The notes under the pieces were generated by a model. That model saw nothing but the letters and a program-made list of their open reading frames with translations. It was not told the origin of the DNA and ran no database searches. Positions 2,046-61,995 of a stretch of 64,000 bases of DNA are shown here, in pieces. The DNA comes from Angustibacter sp. Root456. Lineage in GTDB: Bacteria > Actinomycetota > Actinomycetes > Actinomycetales > Angustibacteraceae. The DNA lies in contig NZ_LMER01000016.1 in the NCBI RefSeq assembly GCF_001426435.1, positions 159,902-223,901 on the forward strand, given 5' to 3'. Made by a program: the position numbers and the translations under genes. Position 1 is the first letter of the stretch; every line of letters begins with the position of its first letter.

Positions 2046-2109
2046 GAGCGTCGGGCGGGTAAGTTCGCAGGTGCCCACCGCCCGTCCGCGAGGCAGAGCA
2101 GGAGCCACC

Positions 2110-2388
2110 GTGAGCCAGACCGACCCCGCAGCGATCGAGTCCGAGATCGAGGCGACGCGCGCCCGCCTGGCCGGCACCGTCGACGAGCTGGCGGTGCGCC
2201 TGCACCCCAAGGAGATCGGCAAGCGCTCGGTGGCGGAGGCGAAGGGCAAGCTCTACGCCGCGACGCACACGCCGGACGGCGCCCTGCGGGTCGAGCGCAT
2301 CGCCGCTGTGGCGGCCGCCGCCGTCGCCCTGGTCGGGCTGATCGTCGCCAACCGGCGGCGGGTCGCGCACCGGGGACGTCGGCACTGA
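2110..2388 (+). CDS. DUF3618 small membrane-anchored protein
   Basis: A 92-residue protein starting at GTG after GAGCAGGAGCCACC, a good ribosome site. The N-terminal half is a charged helix with the DUF3618 pattern (IEATRARLAGTVDELAVRLHP, residues 11-31). One hydrophobic helix follows at about 59-80 (IAAVAAAAVALVGLIVAN), then a basic tail. DUF3618 proteins are common in actinobacteria and have no firm function; they often accompany small phage-holin-like membrane proteins, but none is adjacent here. The gene follows the permease by 64 bp and precedes the GroES-like gene by 28 bp, so the three may be cotranscribed. Confidence 0.8.
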   Translation: MSQTDPAAIESEIEATRARLAGTVDELAVRLHPKEIGKRSVAEAKGKLYAATHTPDGALRVERIAAVAAAAVALVGLIVANRRRVAHRGRRH

Positions 2389-2416
2389 CCTTCGGGGGTG
2401 CCGGTAGCCTCGGCAC

Positions 2417-2752
2417 GTGAGCCCGACCGATCCCGAGAGCCGCCTGCCGATCCGCATGCTGCACGACCGCGTGCTCGTGGCGGTCGACCCGGAGTCGGGT
2501 GAGCGGCGCAGCGGGGGCGGCATCCTGATCCCTGCGACGGCGGCCGTCGGCAAGCGGCTCGGGTGGGCCGAGGTCGTGGCCATCGGGCAGCACGTGCGCC
2601 AGGTGCAGACCGGCGACCGGGTGCTCTTCGACCCCGAGGAGAGCGCGGAGGTCGAGCTGCACGGCTCGCAGTACCAGCTGCTGCGCGAGCGCGACATCCA
2701 CGCCGTCGCCGCCCCACGCGTCGACGACGGCCAGACCGGGCTGTACCTCTGA
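2417..2752 (+). CDS. GroES-like co-chaperonin (Cpn10 fold), without GroEL
   Basis: The 111-residue product has the GroES beta-barrel pattern: IRMLHDRVLVAVDPESGERRS at the N-terminus, a mobile-loop-like segment GGGILIPATAAVGKRLGWAE (about residues 34-53), then VVAIGQHVRQVQTGDRVLFD and a C-terminal LLRERDIHAV strand. Canonical GroES works as a heptameric lid on GroEL. This copy has a basic segment (GKRLGW) where GroES usually has acidic residues, no groEL follows, and it sits alone before a P450 gene. It may be a paralogue rather than the housekeeping co-chaperonin. The GTG start is the first in-frame candidate. Confidence 0.8.
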   Translation: MSPTDPESRLPIRMLHDRVLVAVDPESGERRSGGGILIPATAAVGKRLGWAEVVAIGQHVRQVQTGDRVLFDPEESAEVELHGSQYQLLRERDIHAVAAPRVDDGQTGLYL

Positions 2753-2832
2753 GCGCACCCGGCCGCAGCACCGGCCCGAGAGCGAACGCGCGGTACACCC
2801 CCCTCGCGGTCGACGGGCCGCTGCCGCTCGAC

Positions 2833-4158
2833 ATGGTGCGCGCCGTCCCGGCGATCCGTCGGGATCCGCTCGATTACCTCGAGCGGCTGGTGGGGCGCTA
2901 CGGCGACCTCGTGGCGTTCCCGATGCCGCGCAGCGCCGTCCTGCTCGTCAACGACCCCGCGGGGGCCCGCCGGGTGCTGGTCGAGAACGCCCGGAACTAC
3001 AGCAAGGCGACGATCCAGTACGGCGCGCTGTCGGCCGTGACCGGTGCCGGCCTGCTCACCGCCGACGGCGAGGAGTGGCGCCAGCGCCGGCGCATCGTGC
3101 AGCCGGCCTTCCACCACGCGAGCCTGGACGCCGTCGCCGAGCAGTCCGTGGCCGCCGGGGCGCGCGTGCTGGCCGGGTGGGCGGGCCAGCCGGACGGCAG
3201 CGTCGTCGACGTCGACGCCGCCTGCATGCGCGCCACGCTCGAGGTGGTGGGCCGCACGCTGTTCGACGCCGACCTGGCGGCCGACGGCGAGCGGGTCGTG
3301 GCGGCCGTGCACGACGCGCTCGAGGTGGTGGTGCAGCGGGCGCGCACGCCGCGGCCCGCGTGGCTCCCGCTGCCCTCGCGGCGCCGGCTGGCCCGCGCCG
3401 TCGCGACGCTCGACGAGACCTGCGCCCGGGTCGTCCGGGTGCGGCGCGCGCGCGGTCTCGGCCAGGACGACGACCTGCTGGGCCTGCTGCTGCGCTCGGC
3501 CGACGAGCACGGCGGGCTCACCGACCGGCAGGTGCGCGACGAGCTGGTCACGCTGGTGATCGCCGGCCACGAGACGGTGGCGTCGGCGATGGCCTGGACG
3601 CTGCAGCTGCTGGCCGAGCACCCCGACGTCCAGGCGCAGGTGCAGGCCGAGGTCGACGCGGTCGCGGGGGGCCGGGCGCTCGCCTGGTCGGACGTCCCGC
3701 GGCTGGTGCGCACCCGGCAGGTGGTCGACGAGTCGCTGCGCCTGTTCCCCCCGGCGTGGGTCGTCACCCGCCGGGCGCGGGAGGCCGACGTCGTCGCGGG
3801 TGTCGCGGTGCCGGCCGGCACCCTGGTGATCCTCAGTCCGTGGCTGCTGCACCGACGTCCGCAGGCGTGGCCGGATCCTCTGCGTTTCGACCCCGACCGC
3901 TTCGCCACCCCCCGAGACAGCGCCCCCCGGGGCGACTACCTGCCGTTCGGCGCCGGCCCGCGGCTGTGCATCGGGCGCGACTTCGCGCTCGTCGAGTCGG
4001 TGCTCGCGCTCGCGACGGTGCTGGCCGGCGTCCGGGTCGAGCCGGCCGAAGCGGCGGCGCGGCCGCGCGTCGACGCCCTGGTGACGCTGCGGCCGCACGG
4101 TGGACTGCCCCTCAGGCTGGTGCACCGTGCGGGCCACGGGGTTCCCCCGCTCGGGTGA
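2833..4158 (+). CDS. Cytochrome P450
   Basis: A haem-thiolate monooxygenase. From the ATG at 2833 it has 441 residues with all P450 landmarks: I-helix AGHETVASA near residue 240, the K-helix ExxR motif in ESLRLFPPAW, the PERF-like segment FDPDRFATP, and the haem loop FGAGPRLCIG with ligand Cys379. The HET version of the I-helix and the overall pattern suit the soluble CYP102/CYP4-like actinobacterial class; the substrate is unknown and no ferredoxin gene is adjacent. Start caveat: the frame stays open and P450-like upstream (PLAVDGPLPLD) as far as the groES stop, but no ATG, GTG or TTG occurs there, so the true start may be non-canonical. Confidence 0.9.
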   Translation: MVRAVPAIRRDPLDYLERLVGRYGDLVAFPMPRSAVLLVNDPAGARRVLVENARNYSKATIQYGALSAVTGAGLLTADGEEWRQRRRIVQPAFHHASLDAVAEQSVAAGARVLAGWAGQPDGSVVDVDAACMRATLEVVGRTLFDADLAADGERVVAAVHDALEVVVQRARTPRPAWLPLPSRRRLARAVATLDETCARVVRVRRARGLGQDDDLLGLLLRSADEHGGLTDRQVRDELVTLVIAGHETVASAMAWTLQLLAEHPDVQAQVQAEVDAVAGGRALAWSDVPRLVRTRQVVDESLRLFPPAWVVTRRAREADVVAGVAVPAGTLVILSPWLLHRRPQAWPDPLRFDPDRFATPRDSAPRGDYLPFGAGPRLCIGRDFALVESVLALATVLAGVRVEPAEAAARPRVDALVTLRPHGGLPLRLVHRAGHGVPPLG

Positions 4159-27663: not shown

Positions 27664-29010
27664 GTGGTCGGCCTCTGGCTGCGGCTGCGTGACTCCTTCT
27701 GGGTCGTGCCGGCGCTGCTGTGCGTCGGCGCGGTGGTGCTCGCCGAGGTCGTCCTCGGCCTCGATCGTCACGTCGATCTCGGTGACACGTTCGTCGCTTC
27801 GGTGCTGAACGAGGCCGGTGCGAGCGGCAGCCGCGACCTGCTCGGCGCGGTCGCGGCGTCGATGCTCAGCGTGGCGGGCACGATGTTCTCGATCACCATG
27901 GCGGTGCTCGCGCTGACGTCGTCGAGCTACGGGCCACGGCTGGTGCGCAACTTCATGGGCGATCGCGGCAACCAGGTGGTGCTCGGCACCTTCCTCGCGA
28001 CCTTCCTGTACGCGCTCATCGTGCTGCGCACCGTGCGGTCGAGCGGCGACTCGGGCGATCGCACGGCCTTCGTGCCGCACCTGGCGGTGACCGTCGCCGT
28101 CGTCCTGGCCGTGGTGTGCGTCGCCGTCCTCGTGTACTTCATCCACCACATCAGCGACTCGATCCAGGTGGCGACGCTCTCGGGGCGGGTGCGGCAGGAG
28201 CTGCGCGAGACGGTCGAGCGGATGTACCCGGCCCAGACCGGTCGTGACGTCGCGGCGGTGGCGGACGGCGAGAGTGCGGACCGGGCCGCAGACCTGCCGG
28301 GCGACCTGTCGGCGACCACGCCCGTCGAGGCCGGGGACGCGGGCTACGTCGCGGCCGTCGACCTCGCGCACCTGCTGCGGCTCGGGCAGGACCACGACCG
28401 GGTCGTCGTGCTGACCGTGCGCCCGGGCGACCACGTGCTCGCGGATGACACCGTGGCGCGGATCTGGCCGGCGTGCGACGAGGCCCGCTCGGACGAGCTG
28501 GCGTCAGCGGTGCAGCGGGCGGTGACCGTGGGCCGCAACCGCACGCCGTACCAGGACGTCGCCTTCGCGGTGCAGCAGCTCGTGGAGCTGGCGGTCAGGG
28601 CGCTGTCGCCAGGCACCAACGACCCGTTCACCGCGCAGAACGCCCTGGACGACCTCACCGTCGGCTTGGCTCTCATGGCAGCGCGCCCGACGCCGTCCGC
28701 TCGGCGCTACGACGACCAGGGTCGGCTGCGCGTCGTGGCCGAGCCGGTGACGCTCGCCGAGCTCGTCGACCAGGTGATGGACGCCATGCGGACGTACGCG
28801 CTCGGCGCACCTGGGGTGCTGTTGCGCACGCTCGACCTCGCCCAGGCGGTCGGCGTGCGGGCCGAGTCGTCCGACGTCCGCGAGCGTCTGCGCACGCAGG
28901 TACGGCTGCTGGCTGACACCTTCGCCCGCGAGGCGGTCGCCTCGCGCGACGTCCAGCTCGTCACCGAGCGCGCCGAGCAGGTGCTCGCCGCGGTGCCTGC
29001 TCGACCGTGA
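27664..29010 (+). CDS. DUF2254 membrane protein
   Basis: A 448-residue protein with four membrane helices in the first 165 residues (SFWVVPALLCVGAVVLAEVV, then AVAASMLSVAGTMFSITMAV, VLGTFLATFLYALIVLRTV, AVVLAVVCVAVLVYFIHHIS). A long soluble part contains SYGPRLVRNFMGDRGNQVVL near the membrane and ALSPGTNDPFTAQNALDDLT near residue 318, both hallmarks of DUF2254. The family has no proven function. It begins seven bases after the ettA stop with GTG and is probably cotranscribed. A hairpin follows the stop. Confidence 0.9.
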   Translation: MVGLWLRLRDSFWVVPALLCVGAVVLAEVVLGLDRHVDLGDTFVASVLNEAGASGSRDLLGAVAASMLSVAGTMFSITMAVLALTSSSYGPRLVRNFMGDRGNQVVLGTFLATFLYALIVLRTVRSSGDSGDRTAFVPHLAVTVAVVLAVVCVAVLVYFIHHISDSIQVATLSGRVRQELRETVERMYPAQTGRDVAAVADGESADRAADLPGDLSATTPVEAGDAGYVAAVDLAHLLRLGQDHDRVVVLTVRPGDHVLADDTVARIWPACDEARSDELASAVQRAVTVGRNRTPYQDVAFAVQQLVELAVRALSPGTNDPFTAQNALDDLTVGLALMAARPTPSARRYDDQGRLRVVAEPVTLAELVDQVMDAMRTYALGAPGVLLRTLDLAQAVGVRAESSDVRERLRTQVRLLADTFAREAVASRDVQLVTERAEQVLAAVPARP

Positions 29011-29018
29011 GCGCCGCG

Positions 29019-29057
29019 GGGGCACCCCGCCGCCAACCTATGGCAGCAGGGTGCCCC
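29019..29057. terminator. Stem-loop between DUF2254 and FAS1 genes
   Basis: GGGGCACCC at 29019-29027 pairs perfectly with GGGTGCCCC at 29049-29057 around a 21-base loop. It lies between two convergent genes and can end transcription in both directions. Confidence 0.7.
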
Positions 29058-29060
29058 AGC

Positions 29061-29092
29061 GGCCGCCGTCCGGCCGCCGTCCGGCCGCCGTC
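29061..29092. repeat. 11-bp tandem repeat (GGCCGCCGTCC), three units
   Basis: Units at 29061, 29072 and 29083 (the last one base short) run into the stop codon of the FAS1 gene at 29091-29093. The repeat is short and probably a slippage product. Confidence 0.75.
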
Positions 29093-61029: not shown

Positions 61030-61044
61030 CCCCACCCCCTCCGG

Positions 61045-61067
61045 CGTGATCATGCACGCCAGCGCAG
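61045..61067. repeat. Copy of a CGTGATCATGCACGCCAGC element at the kinase gene 3' end
   Basis: CGTGATCATGCACGCCAGCG followed by CAG matches for 23 bases the reverse complement of the right arm and loop edge of the hairpin at 61883-61934. It lies between the malQ stop and convergent kinase gene, and supplies that gene's last six codons and TGA stop. Confidence 0.8.
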
Positions 61068-61862
61068 GCGGTGGCCGCTGCTGACCCACCACGCGGCGTC
61101 CGCGCGGGCGAGGCGGGCGTAGTCGCGCTCGACCAGCCGTGCGAAGGCGGGGTCGGTACGGGCCATCTCCTCCAGGTCGGCGGCGTGGCCCGTCATCTGC
61201 GCCGCGACCGCGGCGGCGAGGGTGAGGCGCTGACGCGCCGACGGGCCGTAGCCGTCGAGCAGGGCGGCGAGGTTGCGCTGGTGGCGGCCCTCGACCTCCT
61301 CGGTGTCGTCGATGCCGTACTCGGCGTGCCACCACGTGCCGCTCATCAGCGGCACCCAGCGCCACGCCGCCCACGCGAGGTCCTCGATCGGGTCGCCGGG
61401 CCGCGCGAAGTCCCAGTCGAGCACGACGAGGGAGCCGTCGTCTCGGCGCACGGTGTTGTAGGGCGACACGTCGTGGTGCACGACCACCTGGCCATCGCCC
61501 AGAGAACCCCCGGGCGCCCGGCGCCACGGTTTCGCGGTGTCGAGGCGCAGGCCCGCCTGCGCGCGCTGGAACTCGCGGACCCACCGGCCGACGGCCCAGC
61601 AGGCCTCCTCGGTGCGGAACCACCGCGGCAGCGGGTCGGACGGCGACAGCGTGCCGACCTCGCCCGGCACGAACCGCAGGACCTCCCTGGCGGCGTCGTC
61701 CACGCCGAGCACCCGCGGCGAGCCGTCGAACCCGGCCTCGGCCAGGTGGTTCAGCAGGTCGTGGACGGCCGGCGTCCAGGGGCCGACCGGCCGCCGGACG
61801 GTGTCACCGACCCGGACGACGACGGTGGTGTTCCCTCCGCTGAGCGGTTCCTCGACGGCCAC
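61050..61862 (-). CDS. APH-family phosphotransferase flanked by repeats
   Basis: A 270-residue kinase-like protein. Motifs: LSGGNTTVVVRVGDTVRRPV (nucleotide loop), catalytic VVHHDVSPYNTVRRDD (HxDxxxxN), metal-binding VLDWDFARPGDPIEDLAW AA, and a helical C-terminus. The substrate is unknown; aminoglycoside, homoserine or choline-like kinases are all possible. GTG at 61862 follows GGAGGG eight bases upstream. Notably, the final residues RWRA and the stop lie within one copy of a repeat, and an in-frame ATG at 61892 lies in the other copy, so the gene is bounded by the element on both sides. Confidence 0.83.
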   Translation of the reverse strand: MAVEEPLSGGNTTVVVRVGDTVRRPVGPWTPAVHDLLNHLAEAGFDGSPRVLGVDDAAREVLRFVPGEVGTLSPSDPLPRWFRTEEACWAVGRWVREFQRAQAGLRLDTAKPWRRAPGGSLGDGQVVVHHDVSPYNTVRRDDGSLVVLDWDFARPGDPIEDLAWAAWRWVPLMSGTWWHAEYGIDDTEEVEGRHQRNLAALLDGYGPSARQRLTLAAAVAAQMTGHAADLEEMARTDPAFARLVERDYARLARADAAWWVSSGHRLRWRA

Positions 61863-61882
61863 CGCAGCACCCTCCCACGCCG

Positions 61883-61934
61883 CCGTGATCATGCACGCCA
61901 GCACCCTGGGCTGCGCTGGCGTGCATGATCACGG
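61883..61934. repeat. Perfect 20-bp inverted repeat (hairpin element)
   Basis: CCGTGATCATGCACGCCAGC at 61883-61902 is exactly complementary to 61915-61934 with a 12-base loop. A further copy of one arm lies at 61045. The hairpin is upstream of the kinase gene on the minus strand and downstream of pepN. Confidence 0.92.
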
Positions 61935-61995
61935 GCGGGGAGAGGGGGGCGGGGAGAGGGGGCGGGGAGAGGGGGCGGGGAGAGGGGGCGGGGAC
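61933..61995 (+). repeat. 13-bp G-rich tandem repeat (GGCGGGGAGAGGG), more than four units
   Basis: C residues mark the units at 61936, 61950, 61963, 61976 and 61989 (spacing 14, 13, 13, 13). Nearly all other bases are G with GAGA interruptions, so the plus strand has strong quadruplex potential. It abuts the hairpin element at 61883-61934. With the two hairpins it fills the gap 61863-62078. Confidence 0.9.

Follow-up and report, generated by a model that had tools for sequence, protein, structure and literature searches.

The gap between malQ and pepN in the genome of Angustibacter sp. Root456 contains a kinase gene enclosed by copies of a single palindromic element. This raises the question of whether the copies belong to a family of small hairpin elements that spread in the genome, or whether the gene was moved as a cassette between two of them. 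A sequence-only reading of the locus had put forward both explanations. The analysis covered the window, the whole stretch of 64,000 nucleotides that includes this gap, the complete assembly (G000; 3.84 Mb, 20 contigs), and 1.02 Mb of sequence from a sister species (G001).

The kinase gene and its flanking copies

The 18-mer GTGATCATGCACGCCAGC matches the window at 61046-61063 (+), 61885-61902 (+) and 61915-61932 (-). These were the only sites found at up to three mismatches, where 0.09 were expected from shuffled sequences, and the reported three copies, one of them inverted, were therefore confirmed. Each match lies within a longer module, with limits of -8 to +25 that derive from the spacing of all copies (see below). 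Module M1 (61038-61070, +) contains the core GTGATCATGCAC at 61046-61057 and the arm GCCAGCGCA, while M2 (61877-61909, +) and M3 (61908-61940, -) are the left half and the inverted right half of a hairpin. This hairpin, at 61883-61934, is a perfect 20-bp inverted repeat (61883-61902 and 61915-61934) with a loop of 12 nt, predicted to be strong as DNA or RNA (z = -7.5 when folded as DNA). As had also been described, it abuts a 13-bp tandem array at 61933-61994, in which the unit GGGCGGGGAGAGG is present in 4.7 copies with 97% matches. The array is G-rich (CCTCTCCCCGCCC on the other strand), and the same G-rich outer flank lies beside many module copies. In addition, GGGCGGGGAGAGG is found in single form beside the module at locus L076 and in a similar form at L079. 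The array is a local tandem expansion of the module's own outer flank.

The APH-like kinase gene (PF01636) lies on the minus strand at 61050-61892, in an open reading frame that spans 61050-61904. Read on the minus strand, M1 supplies the final codons and the stop of this gene (CGC TGG CGT GCA TGA), as the sequence-only reading had proposed. The in-frame ATG that it had placed in the second copy is there, but translation probably begins elsewhere. GTG 61862 is the likely start, because the protein of G001 begins at the matching position.

Gene order in G001 is largely kept over the region that corresponds to 18.6-64 kb of the window. In this species pepN (83% identical) comes straight after malQ (84%), and the gap of 123 bp between them holds neither an APH gene nor a module. 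The APH orthologue of G001 (74%) is located on another contig, at C5:918852. The presence or absence of the segment between malQ and pepN had been suggested as a check on its origin. Since the segment at 61036-61995 (limits approximate, from a comparison of two gaps) is absent there in G001, it is lineage-specific as far as can be judged from two species, a comparison that fits either an insertion or a loss.

A genome-wide family of 33-bp units

About 105 copies of GTGATCATGCACGCCAGC (up to two mismatches) were identified in the genome, compared with one for the same pattern read backwards. Copies were aligned from stretches of 4.5-5.5 kb around 51 places; among 102 of them, 65 were exact, 32 had one mismatch and five had two, and at least one counted copy (L093, within a gene) could owe its match to chance. 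The conserved block consists of a C-rich flank, C(n)(n)CC, followed by GTGATCATGCAC-G-CCAGC-GCA, after which conservation ends sharply. Copies occur as singles (28), in inverted pairs that form hairpins (41 copies in inverted groups) and in direct arrays (34). Such dispersal bears out the suggestion of a family of small non-coding hairpin elements, as does a homologous family in G001 described below. The copies did not show the opposite pattern, which would be confinement to this locus with positions conserved among distant relatives.

The distances between copies are regular in every orientation. Start-to-start distances were 32-34 in 18 of 22 direct pairs, 35-37 in 12 of 15 inward inverted pairs and 28-30 in five of seven outward inverted pairs, although some spacings are uncertain where the assembly has N inside a unit (e.g., L084, L097, L103, L104). 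Together, the three orientations indicate one unit of approximately 33 bp, from -8 to +25 around the start of the core. The core can itself make a stem of 4-6 bp, and inverted pairs of units form hairpins of 20-24 bp. Point estimates of mismatches per 18 positions were 0.64 for single, 0.44 for inverted and 0.24 for direct copies. A triplet other than GCC followed the core in 14 of 41 inverted-group copies, in none of the 34 direct copies and in seven of the 28 single copies (Fisher 0.006, inverted versus the rest). Thus, most inward hairpins are mismatched immediately after the 12-13-bp core, and the hairpin in the window is perfect.

The family in G001 has the same C-rich flank and the core GTGATCATGCAC, followed by the arm GTTCGCCCC instead of GCCAGCGCA. 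In the 1.02 Mb of G001 there were 14 exact cores, most of them intergenic, whereas permuted cores gave 0.02 on average; the spacings of the exact cores were 33 for direct pairs, and 34-36 and 45-46 for inverted pairs. One inverted pair is common to both species at an orthologous gene end (L096 in G000, C5:161482 in G001), and the arm at L096 (on one side GTCAGCCCC) falls between the arm types of the two species. The G001 gaps corresponding to L095, L097, L098 and L089 contained no unit, and no core was found in the small amounts of sequence from two further relatives, G002 (80 kb) and G003 (129 kb). Because the core and the geometry are common to both species, these sequences place them before the species split, with many positions unshared. 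The uniformity of the arm within each genome would reflect turnover by amplification of new variants. Earlier searches of relatives missed the G001 family because their patterns contained the species-specific arm: a 15-mer that included it gave no copies in 118 relatives, and a 17-mer gave 28 single matches in 84,980 genomes, close to what chance alone would give. A family private to one species was rejected as an explanation once the G001 core with its other arm appeared.

Placement at gene ends and beside an older hairpin family

Gene calls and distances to gene ends were obtained with a home-made codon-usage predictor. By these calls, convergent gaps held 23 of 53 intergenic clusters, whereas 10 of 54 pairs of adjacent genes in the window were convergent (p=2.6e-5), and the median distance of a module was 21 nt to gene 3' ends and 79.5 nt to 5' ends. 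At most four clusters were inside predicted genes. The C-rich side faced the gene end more often than the other side did (45:24, p=0.015). The frames of eight genes end on the core's own TGA, and TGATCA gives a stop codon on either strand. The G001 gaps that match malQ-pepN and L098 hold no modules and instead have unrelated, equally strong hairpins. Convergent gene ends in the genus therefore seem to rely on strong hairpins, of which the units are one exchangeable kind. The units probably act as bidirectional 3'-end hairpins. This role accounts for where units are kept and not for their spread.

A second hairpin family, here called T, is approximately 111 bp long and has about 41 copies in G000. 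It was also found in G001, G002 and G003, and thus T is older than the 33-bp units. Fifteen units lie directly before T, all in one orientation, and T begins 24-27 bp past the core start in 13 of these 15 composites, which independently reproduces the right limit of the unit. Within composites the 18-mers are 95% identical and the T copies 68% identical; T copies without a unit are also 68% identical, and identity across the two sets is 65%. Given this difference between the 18-mers and T, units were probably added repeatedly to existing T copies, or they may be under much stronger constraint. An Rfam search at T gave no family above the gathering score. One T copy (GGGGCACCCTGCTGCCATAGGTTGGCGGCGGGGTGCC) lies in the window at 28954-29064 (-), with no 33-bp unit adjoining. 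At G003 loci L160, L164, L167 and L183 there are neighbouring tandem T-like palindromes (GGGTGCCCCAGTGGCC), as if T were expanding there.

Genes bracketed by modules were also noted at two other loci. At L079, a 310-aa protein encoded at 2081-3010 (-) in the clpX-valS region gave a weak, sub-threshold match to REase_MTES_1575, and its gene lies between inverted module arrays that both carry the arm variant AGACCA. In G001, a single gene at C7:536395-537713 is bracketed by modules (+++- and +-) and is a further cassette candidate.

Origin and spread of the units

Several known systems of short repeats resemble the family. BIMEs of enterobacteria combine palindromic units in alternating orientation with other motifs at gene 3' ends. 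The units described here form a similar mosaic, in that they occur in all orientations, together with T, and with a bias to gene 3' ends; however, the sequences are different, the host is an actinobacterium and the motif T with which the units combine is a hairpin family in its own right, and an older one. DNA uptake sequences of Neisseria and Haemophilus, which number 1000-2000 copies, likewise have a short conserved core and inverted pairs at gene 3' ends. The lower copy number (about 105) and the near-absence from genes argue against such a role, and the arrays with a fixed 33-bp period are a further difference. As in the REP/REPIN elements of Pseudomonas and E. coli (PMC3116915), short imperfect palindromes are over-represented outside genes in about 100 copies, and inverted doublets that make hairpins are frequent. 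Going by point estimates, singlets may also be more divergent than paired copies, as in REPINs. In contrast, REP doublets of strain SBW25 are 93% inverted (PMC3116915), whereas here direct arrays are common, as are inverted pairs of either orientation. The fixed unit of approximately 33 bp is also shorter than a REPIN, the typical GTAG-type head of REPs is absent, and no gene for a RAYT (Y1 transposase) was found in this genome. We found no description of the core GTGATCATGCAC as a repeat in the papers searched.

The Y1/RAYT family (PF01797) was absent from G000, from G001 and from the incomplete G002 and G003, in a search that was positive in E. coli and four other controls. Thus, spread by a Y1 REP transposase within the genus is unlikely. 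No recurrent transposase was seen among the families listed for 106 genes that neighbour modules. Spread by phages or plasmids was dropped from consideration, since the element had no meaningful match in viral contigs, phages or plasmids. An origin from a retron or reverse transcriptase was likewise set aside; the only reverse transcriptase match of the genome adjoins a SLATT_5 gene and resembles a defence gene. This locus (L210, C18:114499-115098 and surroundings), where the reverse transcriptase gene (456-aa ORF) follows the two-TM SLATT_5 gene, looks like an anti-phage pair. A repeated AGATCT hairpin in G001 proved to be a local inverted repeat. Another long inverted repeat of G001 (TGCAGAGATCTACAGCCTTGTG, L152 region, C5:866563-866646) is located just before a start codon; it is also local and is probably an operator.

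The explanation that we consider fairly probable is that of a REP/BIME-like mosaic family of gene-end hairpins, present at the level of the genus and spread by a putative mobiliser acting in trans. The cassette explanation holds that inverted modules serve as terminal inverted repeats, between which a transposase supplied in trans moves whatever they enclose, whether the 12-nt loop, T or a gene such as the APH gene. The ability of inverted copies to enclose a segment or a gene recalls MITEs and mobile insertion cassettes, and that part of the claim of a cassette moved between two copies which could be compared across species held: the segment is absent from the malQ-pepN gap of G001 and the orthologue is elsewhere. 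In addition, some T copies are flanked on each side by inverted modules, and two more genes lie within + ... - modules at places where the sister species has other genes, namely the gene for the 310-aa protein, of unassigned family (C3; flanked by clpX and a GGDEF/EAL gene), and a NERD gene (C18). However, the association of modules with changed gene content was not significant (four of eight, window included, versus 12 of 54 in the background, p=0.19), and the three bracketed genes are a marginal excess (p=0.05) over 0.83 expected, itself a rough estimate from approximately 54 clusters among approximately 3500 genes. At four other module-bearing gaps the two species have unchanged gene neighbours; one of these gaps has the element in both, and at the others only the element differs. 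Many copies are single or direct, the families listed for genes next to modules include no matching transposase, and inspection of the malQ-pepN junctions by eye revealed no target duplications. A cassette mechanism is statistically unsupported, and we regard it as unlikely.

The units could instead be sites for a DNA-binding protein, either a regulator or one that organises the chromosome, with the GTG-N6-CAC core and the phasing of approximately 33 bp selected for cooperative binding. All 12 core positions are kept in almost every copy of both species despite the changed arm, and spacing is similar in every orientation, as such binding would predict; but promoters are avoided and gene 3' ends favoured, selection on the core alone would not make the arm uniform within each genome, and a regulon would be expected to have fewer copies, all of which makes this explanation improbable. 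Ordinary species-specific intrinsic terminators, alike by chance or local duplication, would agree with the bias to 3' ends and convergent gaps and with the other strong hairpins in the corresponding gaps of the sister species. Terminators have no need of a shared sequence, whereas 97 of 102 copies carry at most one mismatch, and the core is common to two species. Paired copies form strong hairpins, but unlike those of intrinsic terminators they are followed by a G/C-rich flank and not by a T run. A pure terminator role is also insufficient because many single and direct copies cannot form the long hairpin, and we consider this explanation very improbable.

Under the REP/BIME-like explanation, the unit consists of the C-rich left flank, the invariant core and an arm of 9 bp, uniform within each species. 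Units butt together in any orientation, in this species often against T, and accumulate just past stop codons, chiefly between convergent genes. The most likely function of the hairpins at these sites is to terminate or protect the transcripts that arrive from either side. Units or doublets may have spread by insertion in trans through a putative enzyme, and each genome would have been taken over by a new arm variant since the species separated. The kinase gene would be an ordinary gene that came to lie between malQ and pepN in this lineage, and its bracketing by modules may be a cause or a consequence of its arrival. A more specific and rather doubtful proposal is that the family is a new non-autonomous hairpin element of actinobacteria, made of 33-bp modules that spread with no Y1 transposase and dock end to end on each other or on T to nearly the base pair, with a fixed 12-bp core and an arm replaced genome-wide in each species, and able to bracket and relocate single genes.

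REP-type elements are explained by a single mobiliser, the RAYT transposase. In the genus described here there is a young, uniform REP-like family, and no Y1 transposase was detected. Either such hairpins can be spread by another enzyme, then, or a family of them persists after its mobiliser is gone. The two species, alike in core and different in arm, provide a natural experiment on the rewriting of a whole family, and this contrast makes the mobiliser, or a binding protein, a testable target.
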